From the IMG/VR virus record IMGVR_UViG_3300020119_000044, positions 1 through 44,238 of that record: a DNA stretch of 44,238 nt. One strand, 5' to 3'. Positions 9,513-44,238 of this stretch are shown piece by piece. Origin of the DNA: a virus. The notes below the pieces were generated by a model, which saw only the letters and a list, made by a program, of their open reading frames with translations, searched no databases and was not told the DNA's origin. Positions within the stretch are counted from its first letter, which is position 1. Every line of letters begins with the position of its first letter. The position numbers and the translations under genes were made by a program.

Positions 9513-10475
9513 ATGTCCTACACTCAGCACCCCCCTTACGCGGTCCAGATTGAAATGGTCCAGGGCTGCAACCTGGGGTGCACGTTCTGTGGCATCAACG
9601 CGCTAGGATACCAGAAACTGAAGCGTGGCAAGGACATGATGACCATCGAGCTGGCGGAGAGCATCGCGAGCCAGATGGCTGCTGCGGGGTGGTGCCCCCG
9701 CGTTGAGTTCGCCATGCACGGGGAGCCTACTCTAAACCCCGATCGTGCAACCATTGTGGGGGTATTCCGAAAGCACCTGCCCAAGGCATACTTGATGATC
9801 ACCAGTAACGGGGGCGGTCTGCTGGTAGGGGACGTCACTCGAAACGTGGACCGCCTGTTCGACGCGGGTCTAAATACCCTAGCGCTGGACCACTACCAGA
9901 ACGTCACGCTCGTCCCCAGGATCCGTGAGCAGTACCGAGGCCAAGTACCTGTGGTAGACTACCCCGACGACACTACCGGCAACCCCCACCAGCGCCACAA
10001 CTGGAAGATGATCAGTATCATCGCAGACATCAGCGTGACCGCCAAGGGCACCCACAGTCATCTGAACAACCACGCGGGCAGCGGGATGCCGCTCAACGAC
10101 CACGGAGAGGGAAAGCGCTGCGCCAAACCTTTCCGAGAGATGAGCATCCGCTGGGATGGGAACGTGGCCCTGTGCTGCAACGATTGGCCAGGCGTCTACC
10201 GTTGTGGAAACGTGGTAGCCGACGGGCTGCTCAAGGTGTGGCAAGGACCCGCCTTTACGGCTGCCAGGCAGATGCTGCTCCAGGGTCGCCGGGAGTTCAG
10301 CCCGTGCCACGGCTGCGATGCCACAAGCTACCGCGTGGGGCTACTGCCCGACCCCCGTGGCAAGGAGGAACTACCAGAACCAGACGCTAATACCAAGCGA
10401 ATCATCCGCCGGGCACAGGCACAGGGCCCCTACACCACGCCCGTGAGAGAACCTCTTACTGAGGAGACAGCATGA
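9513..10475 (+). CDS. radical SAM enzyme with SPASM-like C-terminal cysteines
   Basis: 320 aa. CNLGCTFC places C19, C23 and C26 as the ligands of the SAM-cleaving [4Fe-4S] cluster, with the GEPTLNP SAM-binding motif at 70-76. Six cysteines in the C-terminal third (C203, C221, C222, C231, C265, C268) form a SPASM-like pattern for an auxiliary cluster. Such enzymes perform radical chemistry on peptides, small molecules or nucleic acid bases. It is the first gene of a four-gene run with ATGA-type coupling to the glycosyltransferase, so its likely substrate is the modified base or its side chain. A radical SAM step is known in phage thymidine hypermodification (phage M6 type); the exact reaction here is unknown. 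Confidence 0.85.
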   Translation: MSYTQHPPYAVQIEMVQGCNLGCTFCGINALGYQKLKRGKDMMTIELAESIASQMAAAGWCPRVEFAMHGEPTLNPDRATIVGVFRKHLPKAYLMITSNGGGLLVGDVTRNVDRLFDAGLNTLALDHYQNVTLVPRIREQYRGQVPVVDYPDDTTGNPHQRHNWKMISIIADISVTAKGTHSHLNNHAGSGMPLNDHGEGKRCAKPFREMSIRWDGNVALCCNDWPGVYRCGNVVADGLLKVWQGPAFTAARQMLLQGRREFSPCHGCDATSYRVGLLPDPRGKEELPEPDANTKRIIRRAQAQGPYTTPVREPLTEETA

Positions 10476-11245
10476 GAATTTACATTCCCACGCTAGGTCG
10501 CTGCAACAATCAGCGCACTTGGCAGGCGCTGCCAAAGAAGCTTCAGGACATCACCACCTTGGTCGCTCCCTATGAGGAGAAGAATAGATACACGGGGTAC
10601 CCCAACGTCTTGATCACCAGCCCTACCATCAAGGGCATCGGCCCCACACGCCAGTTCATCATCGAGCACCACGCAGCCCACAACGAAGACGGTCGTCTGC
10701 TGATGCTGGACGATGATCTGTCATTCGCCAAGCGTCGTGAAGACGAGCCCGACAAGTTCGTGGACGCTGAGCCTGCGGACATCGTGGACGCTGTACGAGC
10801 GGTGGACAAGGCGCTCAAGCGGCATGCACACGTAGGCATACTCAGCCGGGAGGGTGGTAACCGCTTCACGCATGGTGATGTGGAGAACGTACGACTGCTC
10901 CGCGCTCTGGGGTACGACGCTCATGTACTGCTCAAGCATGGAGTGAAGTTCAATCGCATCATCGTCATGGAGGACTTCGACGTTGCTCTTCAGCTCCTGC
11001 GCCTGGGCTATCCTAGCTTGGCCATCACCAAGTGGGTGCAGGATCAGACGGGGGGCAGCAACGCTCCCGGCGGATGCAGTACCTACCGCACCATGGAGAA
11101 GCAGATGGAGGGGGCCATTGGACTACATAGGCTCCATCCTGATTTCGTCCGACTGGTGGAGAAGACCACCAAAACCGCGTGGGGCGGCCAGACCCGCACA
11201 GATGTTGTCGTGTCATGGAAGAAGGCATACAATGCGAACCGATGA
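10472..11245 (+). CDS. GT-A fold glycosyltransferase, TET/DNA-modification-associated type
   Basis: 257 aa. The N terminus MRIYIPTLGR and a DDD motif in LMLDDDLSFAKR are typical of nucleotide-sugar-binding GT-A enzymes. C-terminal conserved patches include VMEDFDVALQLLRLGY and the TGGSNAPGG loop. The pattern matches the family described as TET-associated glycosyltransferases, which decorate oxidised or hydroxymethylated pyrimidines in phage DNA. No TET/JBP dioxygenase is present here; the hydroxymethyl group would instead come from the thymidylate-synthase-fold enzyme at 12084. It overlaps the radical SAM gene by ATGA and the next gene by 14 nt. The sugar donor cannot be read from sequence. 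Confidence 0.78.
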   Translation: MRIYIPTLGRCNNQRTWQALPKKLQDITTLVAPYEEKNRYTGYPNVLITSPTIKGIGPTRQFIIEHHAAHNEDGRLLMLDDDLSFAKRREDEPDKFVDAEPADIVDAVRAVDKALKRHAHVGILSREGGNRFTHGDVENVRLLRALGYDAHVLLKHGVKFNRIIVMEDFDVALQLLRLGYPSLAITKWVQDQTGGSNAPGGCSTYRTMEKQMEGAIGLHRLHPDFVRLVEKTTKTAWGGQTRTDVVVSWKKAYNANR

Positions 11246-12080
11246 CCTCTTCGCTTTCATCCGTGAGCGATACCTGATCTGGGATCGCAGAGAGCGGGGA
11301 ATGCCCAAACCCTGGACGCAGGATGAGATCCTCCAGTCCTACCGTTTCTGCAACGTGTACCGAGAGTTAGATACGGTGACGCAGTGGATCTCCGCGAATT
11401 GGAGAGACCGACACCCTTTTGAATCTGATCTGTGGTTCGCCATGGTGGTCGCACGTCTTCTCAATTGGCCAGACACCCTCTATGATATAGGGTTCCCTAT
11501 CAACAGTCGTGGACAGTGGCGAGCGGATCTATTCTGCGAAGTTATCCACGGGCGCCAGGAAGCGAGGCTCAAAACCTACAGCGGGGCCTACATCGTCAGC
11601 ACTAACGGATATCGGATGGACAAAGCCATCTACTTAGCCCAGCATGTACTCACCCCTCTGTGGGGAGCTCGTAAGGATCTACGCCCTAAGAAGGGAGACA
11701 CACTCGCCAGCTACCACGCTAAGCTTACCAAGTACGATGGCCTAGGCAGCTTCATGGCTGCCCAGGTAGTCGCAGATCTCAAGTACGTGGAGCCCTTACT
11801 TAGCGCTGAGGACTGGCTCACCTGGGCGGCCAGCGGGCCGGGCAGCCGGAGAGGTCTCAACCGTGTGTTTGGATTGTCAGTAGAAAACCCGTGGAAAGAA
11901 GTGGACTGGCTTTACAATCTGTGCAGGCTCCACAATGAGGTCGTCCATCTAATCTGTAGGGCGGGGATGCCACAGCTTCATGCTCAGGATCTTCAGAACT
12001 GTCTGTGTGAATTCGACAAGTACGAAAGAGTCCGGCTGGGTGAAGGTCGCCCACGTTCTCTCTACCCAGGAAAGGGGTGA
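11232..12080 (+). CDS. DNA base hypermodification protein (HMUDK-helical / aGPT-Pplase-like)
   Basis: A 282-aa all-helical protein. The frame is open further upstream, but the ATG at 11232, overlapping the glycosyltransferase by 14 nt, fits the family. Conserved patches are SYRFCNVYRELDTVTQWI, DLWFAMVVARLLNWPDTL and LGSFMAAQVVADLKY. These match the helical domain attached to phage 5-hmdU DNA kinases and the alpha-glutamyl/putrescinyl-thymine pyrophosphorylase group, which act on hydroxymethyluracil in DNA. No Walker A motif exists in this protein, so it is not itself the kinase. It is sandwiched between the glycosyltransferase and the thymidylate-synthase-fold enzyme. Confidence 0.8.
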   Translation: MRTDDLFAFIRERYLIWDRRERGMPKPWTQDEILQSYRFCNVYRELDTVTQWISANWRDRHPFESDLWFAMVVARLLNWPDTLYDIGFPINSRGQWRADLFCEVIHGRQEARLKTYSGAYIVSTNGYRMDKAIYLAQHVLTPLWGARKDLRPKKGDTLASYHAKLTKYDGLGSFMAAQVVADLKYVEPLLSAEDWLTWAASGPGSRRGLNRVFGLSVENPWKEVDWLYNLCRLHNEVVHLICRAGMPQLHAQDLQNCLCEFDKYERVRLGEGRPRSLYPGKG

Positions 12081-12083
12081 TCT

Positions 12084-13076
12084 ATGGAAGTCTTATTGTC
12101 AACGAATGTGAACAAGGCGCTGGCCGACGCGCTCTGGCTGGTGAAGTGCAACGGCCATAAAGAAACCAGCCGTAACGGCCCCGTGCTGGTGTGCCCCACC
12201 CCCGTGACCACAGTCTACAGCCACCCCACTCAGCGCGTTTTGTTCAGTCCCTTACGGAATGCCAATCCCTTCTTCCACCTAATGGAGGCTTTGTGGATGA
12301 TCGGTGGCCGCAACGATCTTGACTGGCCCTTGCGGTTCAACAAGAATTTTGCCGGATTTAGTGACGATGGAGTGACTCTACACGGGGCCTACGGCCATCG
12401 TTGGCGCACCCATTTCGGGATTGATCAGCTCATGGTCCTTGCGGAGGAACTCACCCGCAACCCGAACAGCCGCCGGGCTGTGCTAGGAATGTGGGACGTG
12501 ACGCAGGATCTGGGACGTGATGGCAAAGACGTGCCCTGCAACACTCATGTCTATTTCGACGCTCGCAATCACCGGCTCAATATGACCGTGTGCTGTAGGA
12601 GCAACGATATCCTCTGGGGAGCCTATGGGGCGAATGCTGTGCACTTCAGCATCCTACAGGAGTTCCTCGCCGCGTGGGTGGGCATCCCCGTGGGCGTGTA
12701 TCGCCAGATGAGCAACAACCTCCACCTCTACACTCACGTCCTGTCAGAATCTAAGATCCAAGACATGGTCCTGGATGCCAGCCAGAATGACCTTTACGAA
12801 CTGGGAGAAGTCAAGACCAGCCCACTTGTTCGCGTGGCCATTCACCATTGGCTACAGGATCTTGAGGCATTCCTCGACAACCCCCTCAACGTGGAATACG
12901 AGTACATCGATCCCTTCTTCAAAAATACCGCAGTCCCGATGTACATGGCTTGGCATCACCGCAAGACGCTAAAGAGCAGTGGAGCAGCGTGGGCAGCCAG
13001 TATCGAAGCAGAAGACTGGAGAGAAGCCTGCACAGCCTGGATCACCAGAAAGGAGGATTCCCGTGCCGCAAGCTAA
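12084..13076 (+). CDS. thymidylate synthase-fold dUMP hydroxymethylase (putative)
   Basis: 330 aa. The catalytic cysteine is C152 in VPCNTHVYF. The phosphate- and base-binding loop is R172-S173-N174-D175 in CRSNDILWGAYGANAVHFS, and HLY (214-216) is the sugar motif. Asn184 in the position expected for uracil recognition points to dUMP and not dCMP. The C terminus ends in a charged EDSRAAS, not the short hydrophobic tail that closes the ThyA active site, which favours transfer of hydroxymethyl over methyl. With the neighbouring base-modification genes this suggests synthesis of 5-hydroxymethyl-dUMP. A plain ThyA remains possible. Confidence 0.8.
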   Translation: MEVLLSTNVNKALADALWLVKCNGHKETSRNGPVLVCPTPVTTVYSHPTQRVLFSPLRNANPFFHLMEALWMIGGRNDLDWPLRFNKNFAGFSDDGVTLHGAYGHRWRTHFGIDQLMVLAEELTRNPNSRRAVLGMWDVTQDLGRDGKDVPCNTHVYFDARNHRLNMTVCCRSNDILWGAYGANAVHFSILQEFLAAWVGIPVGVYRQMSNNLHLYTHVLSESKIQDMVLDASQNDLYELGEVKTSPLVRVAIHHWLQDLEAFLDNPLNVEYEYIDPFFKNTAVPMYMAWHHRKTLKSSGAAWAASIEAEDWREACTAWITRKEDSRAAS

Positions 13077-43670: not shown

Positions 43671-44238
43671 GAGCATTCACCAACACCGTCCAGACCAAGA
43701 CGCAGGCCGTCGCCATGATGCAAGAGCATCGGCGACTCGATCAGATCATTGCCGGTGCCTACAGCAACGGCCAAGAAGGCGAAGACTTCAGGGGCTGTCT
43801 CGTGGGCTGCGCCACCCACGGCGACCACATGCTTTTCGAGCCCCAGTTCGGGATTCCGTGGCGTGTCGCGTGGTTGGCCGATGACATCTTCGAGGGTCTC
43901 AACAAGGAGGACGGCGCGGCTTTCGCGGTCGAGTTTTTCGAGGCCATCCCAGAAGGTGCAGATCTATCGCGTGTTTTCGATGCGTGGTGCGCTTGGATGC
44001 TCGCGGACAAGGTTGACGGCCTGATCGCCATATCATCCGGACCGTCCGTCGCCACCATGGGCGGTCTCTTCTCTCGCGCAGCGACTGGAGATGAGCCGAC
44101 TGCCGAGGAGTGGGAAGAGGCCGCCAGGGCCGCCAGGGCCGCCTGGGACGCCAGGGACGCCTGGGACGCCACGGCCGCTACGGCCGCCAGGGCCGCCAGG
44201 GCCGCCTGGGACGCCAGGGACGCCTGGGACGCCACGGC
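43667..44238 (+). CDS. alanine-rich triplet-repeat phage protein, N-terminal part (3' end at 1-456)
   Basis: 190 codons to the window end. Residues 1 to about 135 are a globular domain with features shared by a family of phage proteins of unknown function: MRAFTNTV, DQIIAGAYSNGQEG, GCLVGCATHGDHM, GIPWRVAWLADDIFEGL and FFEAIPEGADLS. From about residue 150 on, AAR, AAW and DAR/DAW triplets begin. The last codon is cut (GC). Joining to base 1 directly would shift the frame by one nt relative to the frame-1 half, so at least one base, and probably several repeat units, are missing at the break. Confidence 0.75.
   Translation, partial: MRAFTNTVQTKTQAVAMMQEHRRLDQIIAGAYSNGQEGEDFRGCLVGCATHGDHMLFEPQFGIPWRVAWLADDIFEGLNKEDGAAFAVEFFEAIPEGADLSRVFDAWCAWMLADKVDGLIAISSGPSVATMGGLFSRAATGDEPTAEEWEEAARAARAAWDARDAWDATAATAARAARAAWDARDAWDAT
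44119..44238 (+). repeat. 9-bp coding minisatellite (right copy of the contig-spanning tract)
   Basis: The same GCCGCC(A/T)GG and GACGCC(A/T)GG units as at 1-384, with ACGGCC variants (44169-44180 and the last bases). It continues to the final base of the window. The full tract is at least 500 bp long. Confidence 0.95.

Follow-up and report, generated by a model that had tools for sequence, protein, structure and literature searches.

The virus record IMGVR_UViG_3300020119_000044 from IMG/VR, analysed over its whole length of 44,238 bases ("the window"), carries on its plus strand a cassette of four genes (positions 9513-13076), which suggests glycosylation of a modified thymine in phage DNA. 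In order, the genes encode a radical S-adenosylmethionine (SAM) enzyme, a glycosyltransferase of the TAGT family, an HMUDK_hel protein (hereafter HEL) and an enzyme of thymidylate synthase (TS) fold. A cassette of this composition had been proposed in a first-pass annotation made from the letters alone, and a Pfam search of the window bears it out: each gene lies where it had been placed, and all four products exceed the curated cut-offs. The end of the first gene and the start of the second share an ATGA (10472-10475), the second and third genes overlap by 14 bases (11232-11245), and a 3-base spacer separates the third from the fourth. The four genes are translationally coupled. The third open reading frame most likely starts at the ATG at 11232, within the end of the second gene, rather than at a TTG at 10983.

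The fourth gene (12084-13076, 330 residues) encodes a predicted dUMP 5-hydroxymethylase. It matches Thymidylat_synt (PF00303, E 1e-17) and PHROG 5131 (E 6e-117), and is 46% identical to gp58 of Pseudomonas phage M6; its nearest phage relatives are M6-like and Bordetella phage enzymes (46-47% identity). The catalytic cysteine, C152 of the KDVPCN motif (12537-12539), aligns with those of TS and of CMP hydroxymethylase. The base-selecting residue is N184 (12633-12635), equivalent to N177 of E. coli TS. This position is Asn in the enzymes of the window, M6, loci L003 and L007 and in TS, versus Asp in a T4-like gp42 homologue and in the CMP hydroxymethylase MilA, so that the Asp hallmark of dCMP and CMP hydroxymethylases is replaced here by Asn, which indicates dUMP as the substrate. 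The relationship to M6 and the partner genes favour a hydroxymethylase over a TS. The thymine-directed modification claimed in the first-pass annotation agrees with the dUMP-type enzyme, its Asn and its kinship with gp58.

HEL, the third product (11232-12080, 282 residues), matches HMUDK_hel (PF18723, "aGPT-PPlase clade 1", E 7e-46) and is 36% identical to its M6 counterpart. Its structural model is of high confidence (pLDDT 96, pTM 0.91). The top match of this model in the VIA structural comparison is the 5-PmdU glycinyltransferase of phage PaMx11 (Z 11.2), and the remainder of the list consists almost wholly of DNA glycosylases of the helix-hairpin-helix (HhH) superfamily (most at Z 6-10) and of the DUF2419 queuine-salvage fold, values that helical folds can reach by chance. 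On this model, a place for HEL in the HhH-glycosylase fold is provisional. Among 58 HEL members, 27 columns are invariant. In Bacillus phage Goe26 (L096, 5062-6969), a P-loop kinase of 5-hydroxymethyldeoxyuridine (5-hmdU) is fused to HMUDK_hel in a single protein of 636 residues, and the two genes adjoin in M6, which suggests that the kinase has its DNA-side half in HEL. The 5-hmdU kinase is active on DNA containing hydroxymethyluracil (hmU), not hydroxymethylcytosine (hmC) (PMC6457204), and HEL is therefore tied to uracil. In the window, it is better read as a DNA-binding partner presenting the base to the glycosyltransferase than as evidence of a kinase. Of note, around a supported HEL clade (L011, L016, L021, L030, L041, L052, L057 and L070), several members of which lie on contigs of 100-460 kb, neither a synthase nor a kinase nor a glycosyltransferase turned up, and the six of its records that were searched gave no TAGT match.

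The second gene (10472-11245, 257 residues) encodes a GT-A glycosyltransferase matching the TAGT family (PF20691, E 4e-21, 76.3 bits versus a cut-off of 27.5) and PHROG 842, annotated as beta-glucosyl-HMC-alpha-glucosyltransferase (E 2e-48). Motifs of the DxD type serve nucleotide-sugar and metal binding in GT-A enzymes, and the sequence reads DDD at residues 80-82 (10709-10717). Its predicted function is the glycosylation of 5-hmdU in DNA.

The first gene (9513-10475, 320 residues) encodes the radical SAM enzyme, with Pfam matches to SPASM (E 2.8e-12) and Radical_SAM (E 5e-10). Its best match in the Protein Data Bank (PDB) by phmmer is BtrN (4m7t, E 2.5e-10, 18% identity), and its model is likewise closest to BtrN by Foldseek (E 2.6e-11) and VIA (Z 19.2, the next family at 12.6). 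The cysteines of the CxxxCxxC motif (C19, C23 and C26; 9567-9590), which bind the SAM-associated [4Fe-4S] cluster, are invariant in an eight-member family alignment (A1). So are the four that align with the auxiliary-cluster cysteines of BtrN (C203, C221, C265 and C268; region 10119-10316, which also holds the invariant C222). SpeY, DesII, BlsE and AbmM are also found among the structural matches, with BtrN, SpeY and DesII among the closest folds. The substrates of SpeY, DesII, BlsE and AbmM are cyclitols, sugars or sugar nucleosides. In BtrN, the auxiliary cluster has four Cys ligands, and this low-potential cluster accompanies two-electron alcohol oxidation, unlike in MoaA (PMC9012708). By analogy, the window enzyme probably oxidises a sugar hydroxyl, as a sugar-modifying enzyme of the dehydrogenase type. 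Kinship with the radical SAM enzyme of M6 was considered and rejected (E 0.43 against the M6 profile). Judged by sequence and model, the window protein is not of the M6 type: it is a Twitch enzyme resembling BtrN, from a family linked to glycosyltransferases.

This radical SAM family is nearly virus-only. An alignment query retrieves 155 relatives in IMG/VR, a single-sequence scan of viral contigs found nothing, and a collection of genomes from 84,980 species yields only two matches, one of them distant (L181). A single-query tblastn of 50,697 phage records gave no close homologue, its only matches (24-25% identity) being in Campylobacter phages and one unclassified record. The Campylobacter phages carry distant BtrN-like radical SAM genes (e.g., MK408758.1, 78826-79569), some of which are annotated "BtrN protein". 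A neighbourhood survey covered 55 clusters fetched by the radical SAM gene alone (53 viral and 2 genome loci). A TAGT or a GT-B-like glycosyltransferase lies nearby in 47 of them and only a protein termed X in 4, while HEL is found in 49, the synthase in 50 and a kinase in 1. Four clusters are without a glycosyltransferase-type (GT-type) partner: L145 and L148, which are truncated where their contigs end, the distant match L181, and L104, a genuine exception.

The first-pass annotation had also claimed that no 5-hmdU kinase is visible, and had proposed a profile search of the whole proteome as a check. A search of the record with the kinase family PF18748 came up empty at a cut-off as loose as E<=10. 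PF18748 by itself is insensitive, since it missed a kinase in L010 that a profile grown from M6 gp54 detects, and the absence therefore rests on this grown profile and on motif searches. In 22 related loci, the gp54-grown profile detects kinases whose loop is of the GxxGxGK[ST] type, and it finds none in the window (best E 0.93). No kinase-type Walker A motif occurs in the open frames of at least 60 codons, the lone close pattern being that of the terminase. The amino-acid:DNA transferase (ADDT) family PF18724 is equally without a match in the record at E<=10 (best E 1.1 with an M6-grown profile). A kinase in the missing junction sequence, named in the first-pass annotation as what would overturn its reading, is not indicated by the contig ends. 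Both (1-382 and 44119-44238) consist of the same GC-rich tandem repeat of 9/18 bases, GGGACGCC[A/T], and encode RDAWDA-type repeats in open frames, one exiting on the right and one entering on the left. Probably, one repeat-coding gene spans the assembly break and little sequence is missing, the gap being more of this gene rather than a concealed kinase. A kinase hidden in the window or at the junction was thus rejected, the profile and motif searches being empty and the junction reading as repeat.

Comparison across loci places this absence in context. In total, 88 HEL loci were grouped into 71 clusters at 90% identity, and the analysis covered the 49 that contain a synthase and extend 2.5 kb or more upstream. 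A kinase is present in 16, a TAGT in 21, a GT-B-like protein in 6 and protein X, counted as a GT-type partner by position only, in 5. The remaining one, L025, has a divergent TAGT under the score limit, bringing the TAGT total to 22 and the kinase-free total to 33. A kinase never accompanies a TAGT, GT-B-like protein or protein X in these clusters (0/49; Fisher test for exclusion, p 5e-12 for all GT-type partners and p 1e-5 for TAGT alone). Whole-record searches of 23 other records with GT-type loci gave no match to PF18748 or PF18724. Mapping kinase and GT-type partners onto the HEL tree takes 15 changes, against a mean of 17.5 for shuffled labels (15 or fewer in 27 of 200 shuffles), so that the phylogenetic signal in the type of partner is slight. 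Well-supported groups of mixed state comprise L065 (kinase) with L058 (X), L044 (TAGT) with L040 (kinase), L037 with L045, and L071 with L076 and L067. The most economical interpretation is a fixed pair, HEL and synthase, whose partner is swapped between a kinase and a glycosyltransferase. The first-pass annotation had offered two ways around the missing kinase, another activation route or direct addition of the sugar. The alternation beside HEL and synthase speaks for direct addition; lacking a kinase is ordinary for a large class of loci, and no missing step calls for another route.

Gene families, diagnostic residues, gene coupling, the lack of a kinase and the exchange of partners across loci together make it reasonably probable that the cassette encodes a DNA-thymine glycosylation pathway, in which the sugar is placed directly on 5-hmdU and altered by the radical SAM enzyme. 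We infer each reaction, the order of the reactions and the purpose as follows. The synthase-fold enzyme would convert dUMP to 5-hydroxymethyl-dUMP, which, once phosphorylated, would enter phage DNA and replace some or all of the thymidine. HEL, resembling HhH DNA glycosylases, would bind the DNA and present the 5-hmdU base, a role that it probably also plays for the P-loop kinase of phages of the M6 and Goe26 types. The TAGT would then attach a sugar straight to the hydroxymethyl oxygen; a kinase or a pyrophosphate activation would be unneeded because a nucleotide sugar is an already activated donor. Finally, the BtrN-like enzyme would alter the sugar, most likely by two-electron alcohol oxidation, its substrate being either the nucleotide sugar prior to transfer or the sugar already placed on DNA. 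Such a base would serve as protection from host restriction.

Several observations weigh against this pathway or the exchange of partners behind it. The TAGTs of known product glycosylate glucosyl-hmC, not 5-hmdU. The alternation is not absolute, as L141 (4351-12112) holds HEL, kinase, protein X, TAGT, radical SAM enzyme and synthase together. Furthermore, the loci were gathered mainly with the HEL of a GT-type phage as query, and a few by TAGT, which biases the frequencies, and the backbone of the HEL tree is weakly resolved, the mixed pairs being independent of it. The GT-B-like proteins were assigned on weak matches (best E 6e-5, under the cut-off), and a comparison of this family with the PDB by sequence gave no match. 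Protein X, the partner in 5 of the 33 GT-type loci, has no informative match in PDB, Pfam or PHROGs. It lies beside HEL in kinase-free loci (L005, 104-1051; L013, L075, L058, L009, L050 and L166), carries invariant QxDYTI-PP and ANRFYE-like motifs, and is possibly a divergent GT-B. As for the models, a Foldseek search with HEL gave nothing below E 0.001, its likeness to glycosylases resting on VIA Z only, and its profile comparison with ADDT is not significant. The confidence of the radical SAM model is modest (pLDDT 72).

Other readings of the cassette can be set against the same evidence. One of them retains the glycosylation of 5-hmdU and has the radical SAM enzyme act not on the sugar but on the base, for instance by oxidation of the hydroxymethyl or by formation of a C-C bond. 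Radical SAM enzymes of M6-type pathways, in the work of Lee et al. 2022, reportedly act on the base adduct, and not all Twitch enzymes are dehydrogenases, MoaA being one that is not; this reading has a low probability. The window enzyme, however, falls outside the M6 family (E 0.43). It shares with BtrN an auxiliary cluster of four cysteines, and among the folds nearest to its own are those of BtrN, SpeY and DesII, which act on cyclitols and sugars. Its neighbours are glycosyltransferases of at least two kinds, with a kinase in just 1 of 55 clusters. Alternatively, HEL could itself be catalytic and the final base bear more than a sugar, for instance through a kinase-free amino-acid transfer, as its nearest structural match, the PaMx11 glycinyltransferase (Z 11.2), and its 27 invariant columns in 58 members would allow. 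This is unlikely: HEL is found both with kinases and with GT-type partners and also occurs in fusion with a kinase, a separate ADDT is present in kinase loci with amino-acid chemistry, and the conservation fits a base-binding pocket equally well.

A cytosine system like that of the T-even phages, with the synthase producing 5-hmdCMP and the TAGT glucosylating 5-hmC, would suit the best known TAGT relatives, whose substrate in T6-type phages is glucosyl-hmC and whose genes adjoin that of a dCMP hydroxymethylase. It appears quite improbable here, the base-selecting residue being Asn and not Asp, the synthase grouping with M6-type hmdU enzymes (46-47% identity), and the partners of HEL being hmdU kinases inactive on hmC. 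Finally, surface-sugar glycosyltransferases do occur in phages, and the glycosyltransferase and radical SAM enzyme might make a sugar of the host surface or capsule, with the nucleotide genes adjacent by chance. Such a coincidence is hardly credible given that genes of these kinds repeatedly lie with HEL and TS, in dozens of divergent loci, that the TAGTs are a family of phage DNA glycosyltransferases, and that start and stop codons overlap between the cassette genes.

The direct glycosylation of 5-hmdU can be compared with systems already described. In the M6/ViI type, exemplified by Pseudomonas phage M6 and its 5-NedU, the dUMP hydroxymethylase (46%) and HMUDK_hel (36%) are homologous and the expected plan is the same, a modification after replication. 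Early genes near the window cassette encode a DNA polymerase A, an SNF2-type helicase, an exonuclease and a DNA ligase, and the cassette is therefore placed in a replication region, as is its M6 counterpart. In contrast to that type, the window is devoid of a P-loop 5-hmdU kinase, an ADDT and a pyridoxal phosphate enzyme, its radical SAM enzyme belongs to another family, and a glycosyltransferase stands in place of the kinase. The cultured Brevibacterium phage LuckyBarnes also has synthase, TAGT and HMUDK_hel adjacent, in the order TS-TAGT-TAGT-HEL, but with two TAGTs, a long divergent synthase and no radical SAM gene in the neighbourhood examined; the kinase was not searched for genome-wide there. 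T6-type 5-hmC glucosylation shares the glycosyltransferase family (PF20691) and a hydroxymethylpyrimidine target, whereas its hydroxymethylase is of the Asp dCMP type and an alpha-GT (or beta-GT) acts first. BtrN, a 2-deoxy-scyllo-inosamine dehydrogenase, shares the Twitch fold (Z 19.2) and the four-Cys cluster and differs in belonging to a bacterial antibiotic pathway, not to a phage DNA cassette (18% identity).

In pelagiphages with HTVC023P-type loci, TS, HMUDK_hel and a TAGT-like gene have been reported together, in an account whose accessible part mentions neither a radical SAM enzyme nor the replacement of a kinase (PMC9599517). A 2026 study documents solitary TAGT genes of unknown substrate in 288 of 753 phage genomes, TAGTs unaccompanied by an alpha- or beta-GT being common (PMC13216743). 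A literature search that lacked the central papers of the field returned nothing linking the radical SAM family to the cassette genes, and no priority is claimed. The alternation of kinase and glycosyltransferase and the radical SAM partner appear to be new, the combination of synthase, HMUDK_hel and TAGT having already been noted in the pelagiphages.

More speculatively, and with somewhat less than an even chance of being right, the cassette may represent a widespread virus-only modification, in which thymine becomes 5-hydroxymethyluracil bearing a radically oxidised (e.g., keto or carbonyl) sugar, through an interchangeable module of adaptor and transferase where HEL presents the base and kinase and glycosyltransferase are swapped between phages. 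The proposed glycosylation would give one class of solitary TAGTs a candidate target, 5-hmdU in DNA, and would account for the absence of a kinase in such phages. HMUDK_hel, named after the kinase, would be recast as a DNA-side partner shared by several chemistries, and the virus-specific radical SAM family (at least 155 IMG/VR matches, no close homologue found in cultured-phage records) may bring an undescribed DNA sugar chemistry. Bases of this kind would have consequences for restriction, CRISPR and the sequencing of phage DNA. Both a TAGT and a GT-B-like gene lie beside the radical SAM gene in L100, L138, L139, L143, L144, L146, L159, L160, L176 and L178; these loci with two glycosyltransferases possibly place two sugars on each base.

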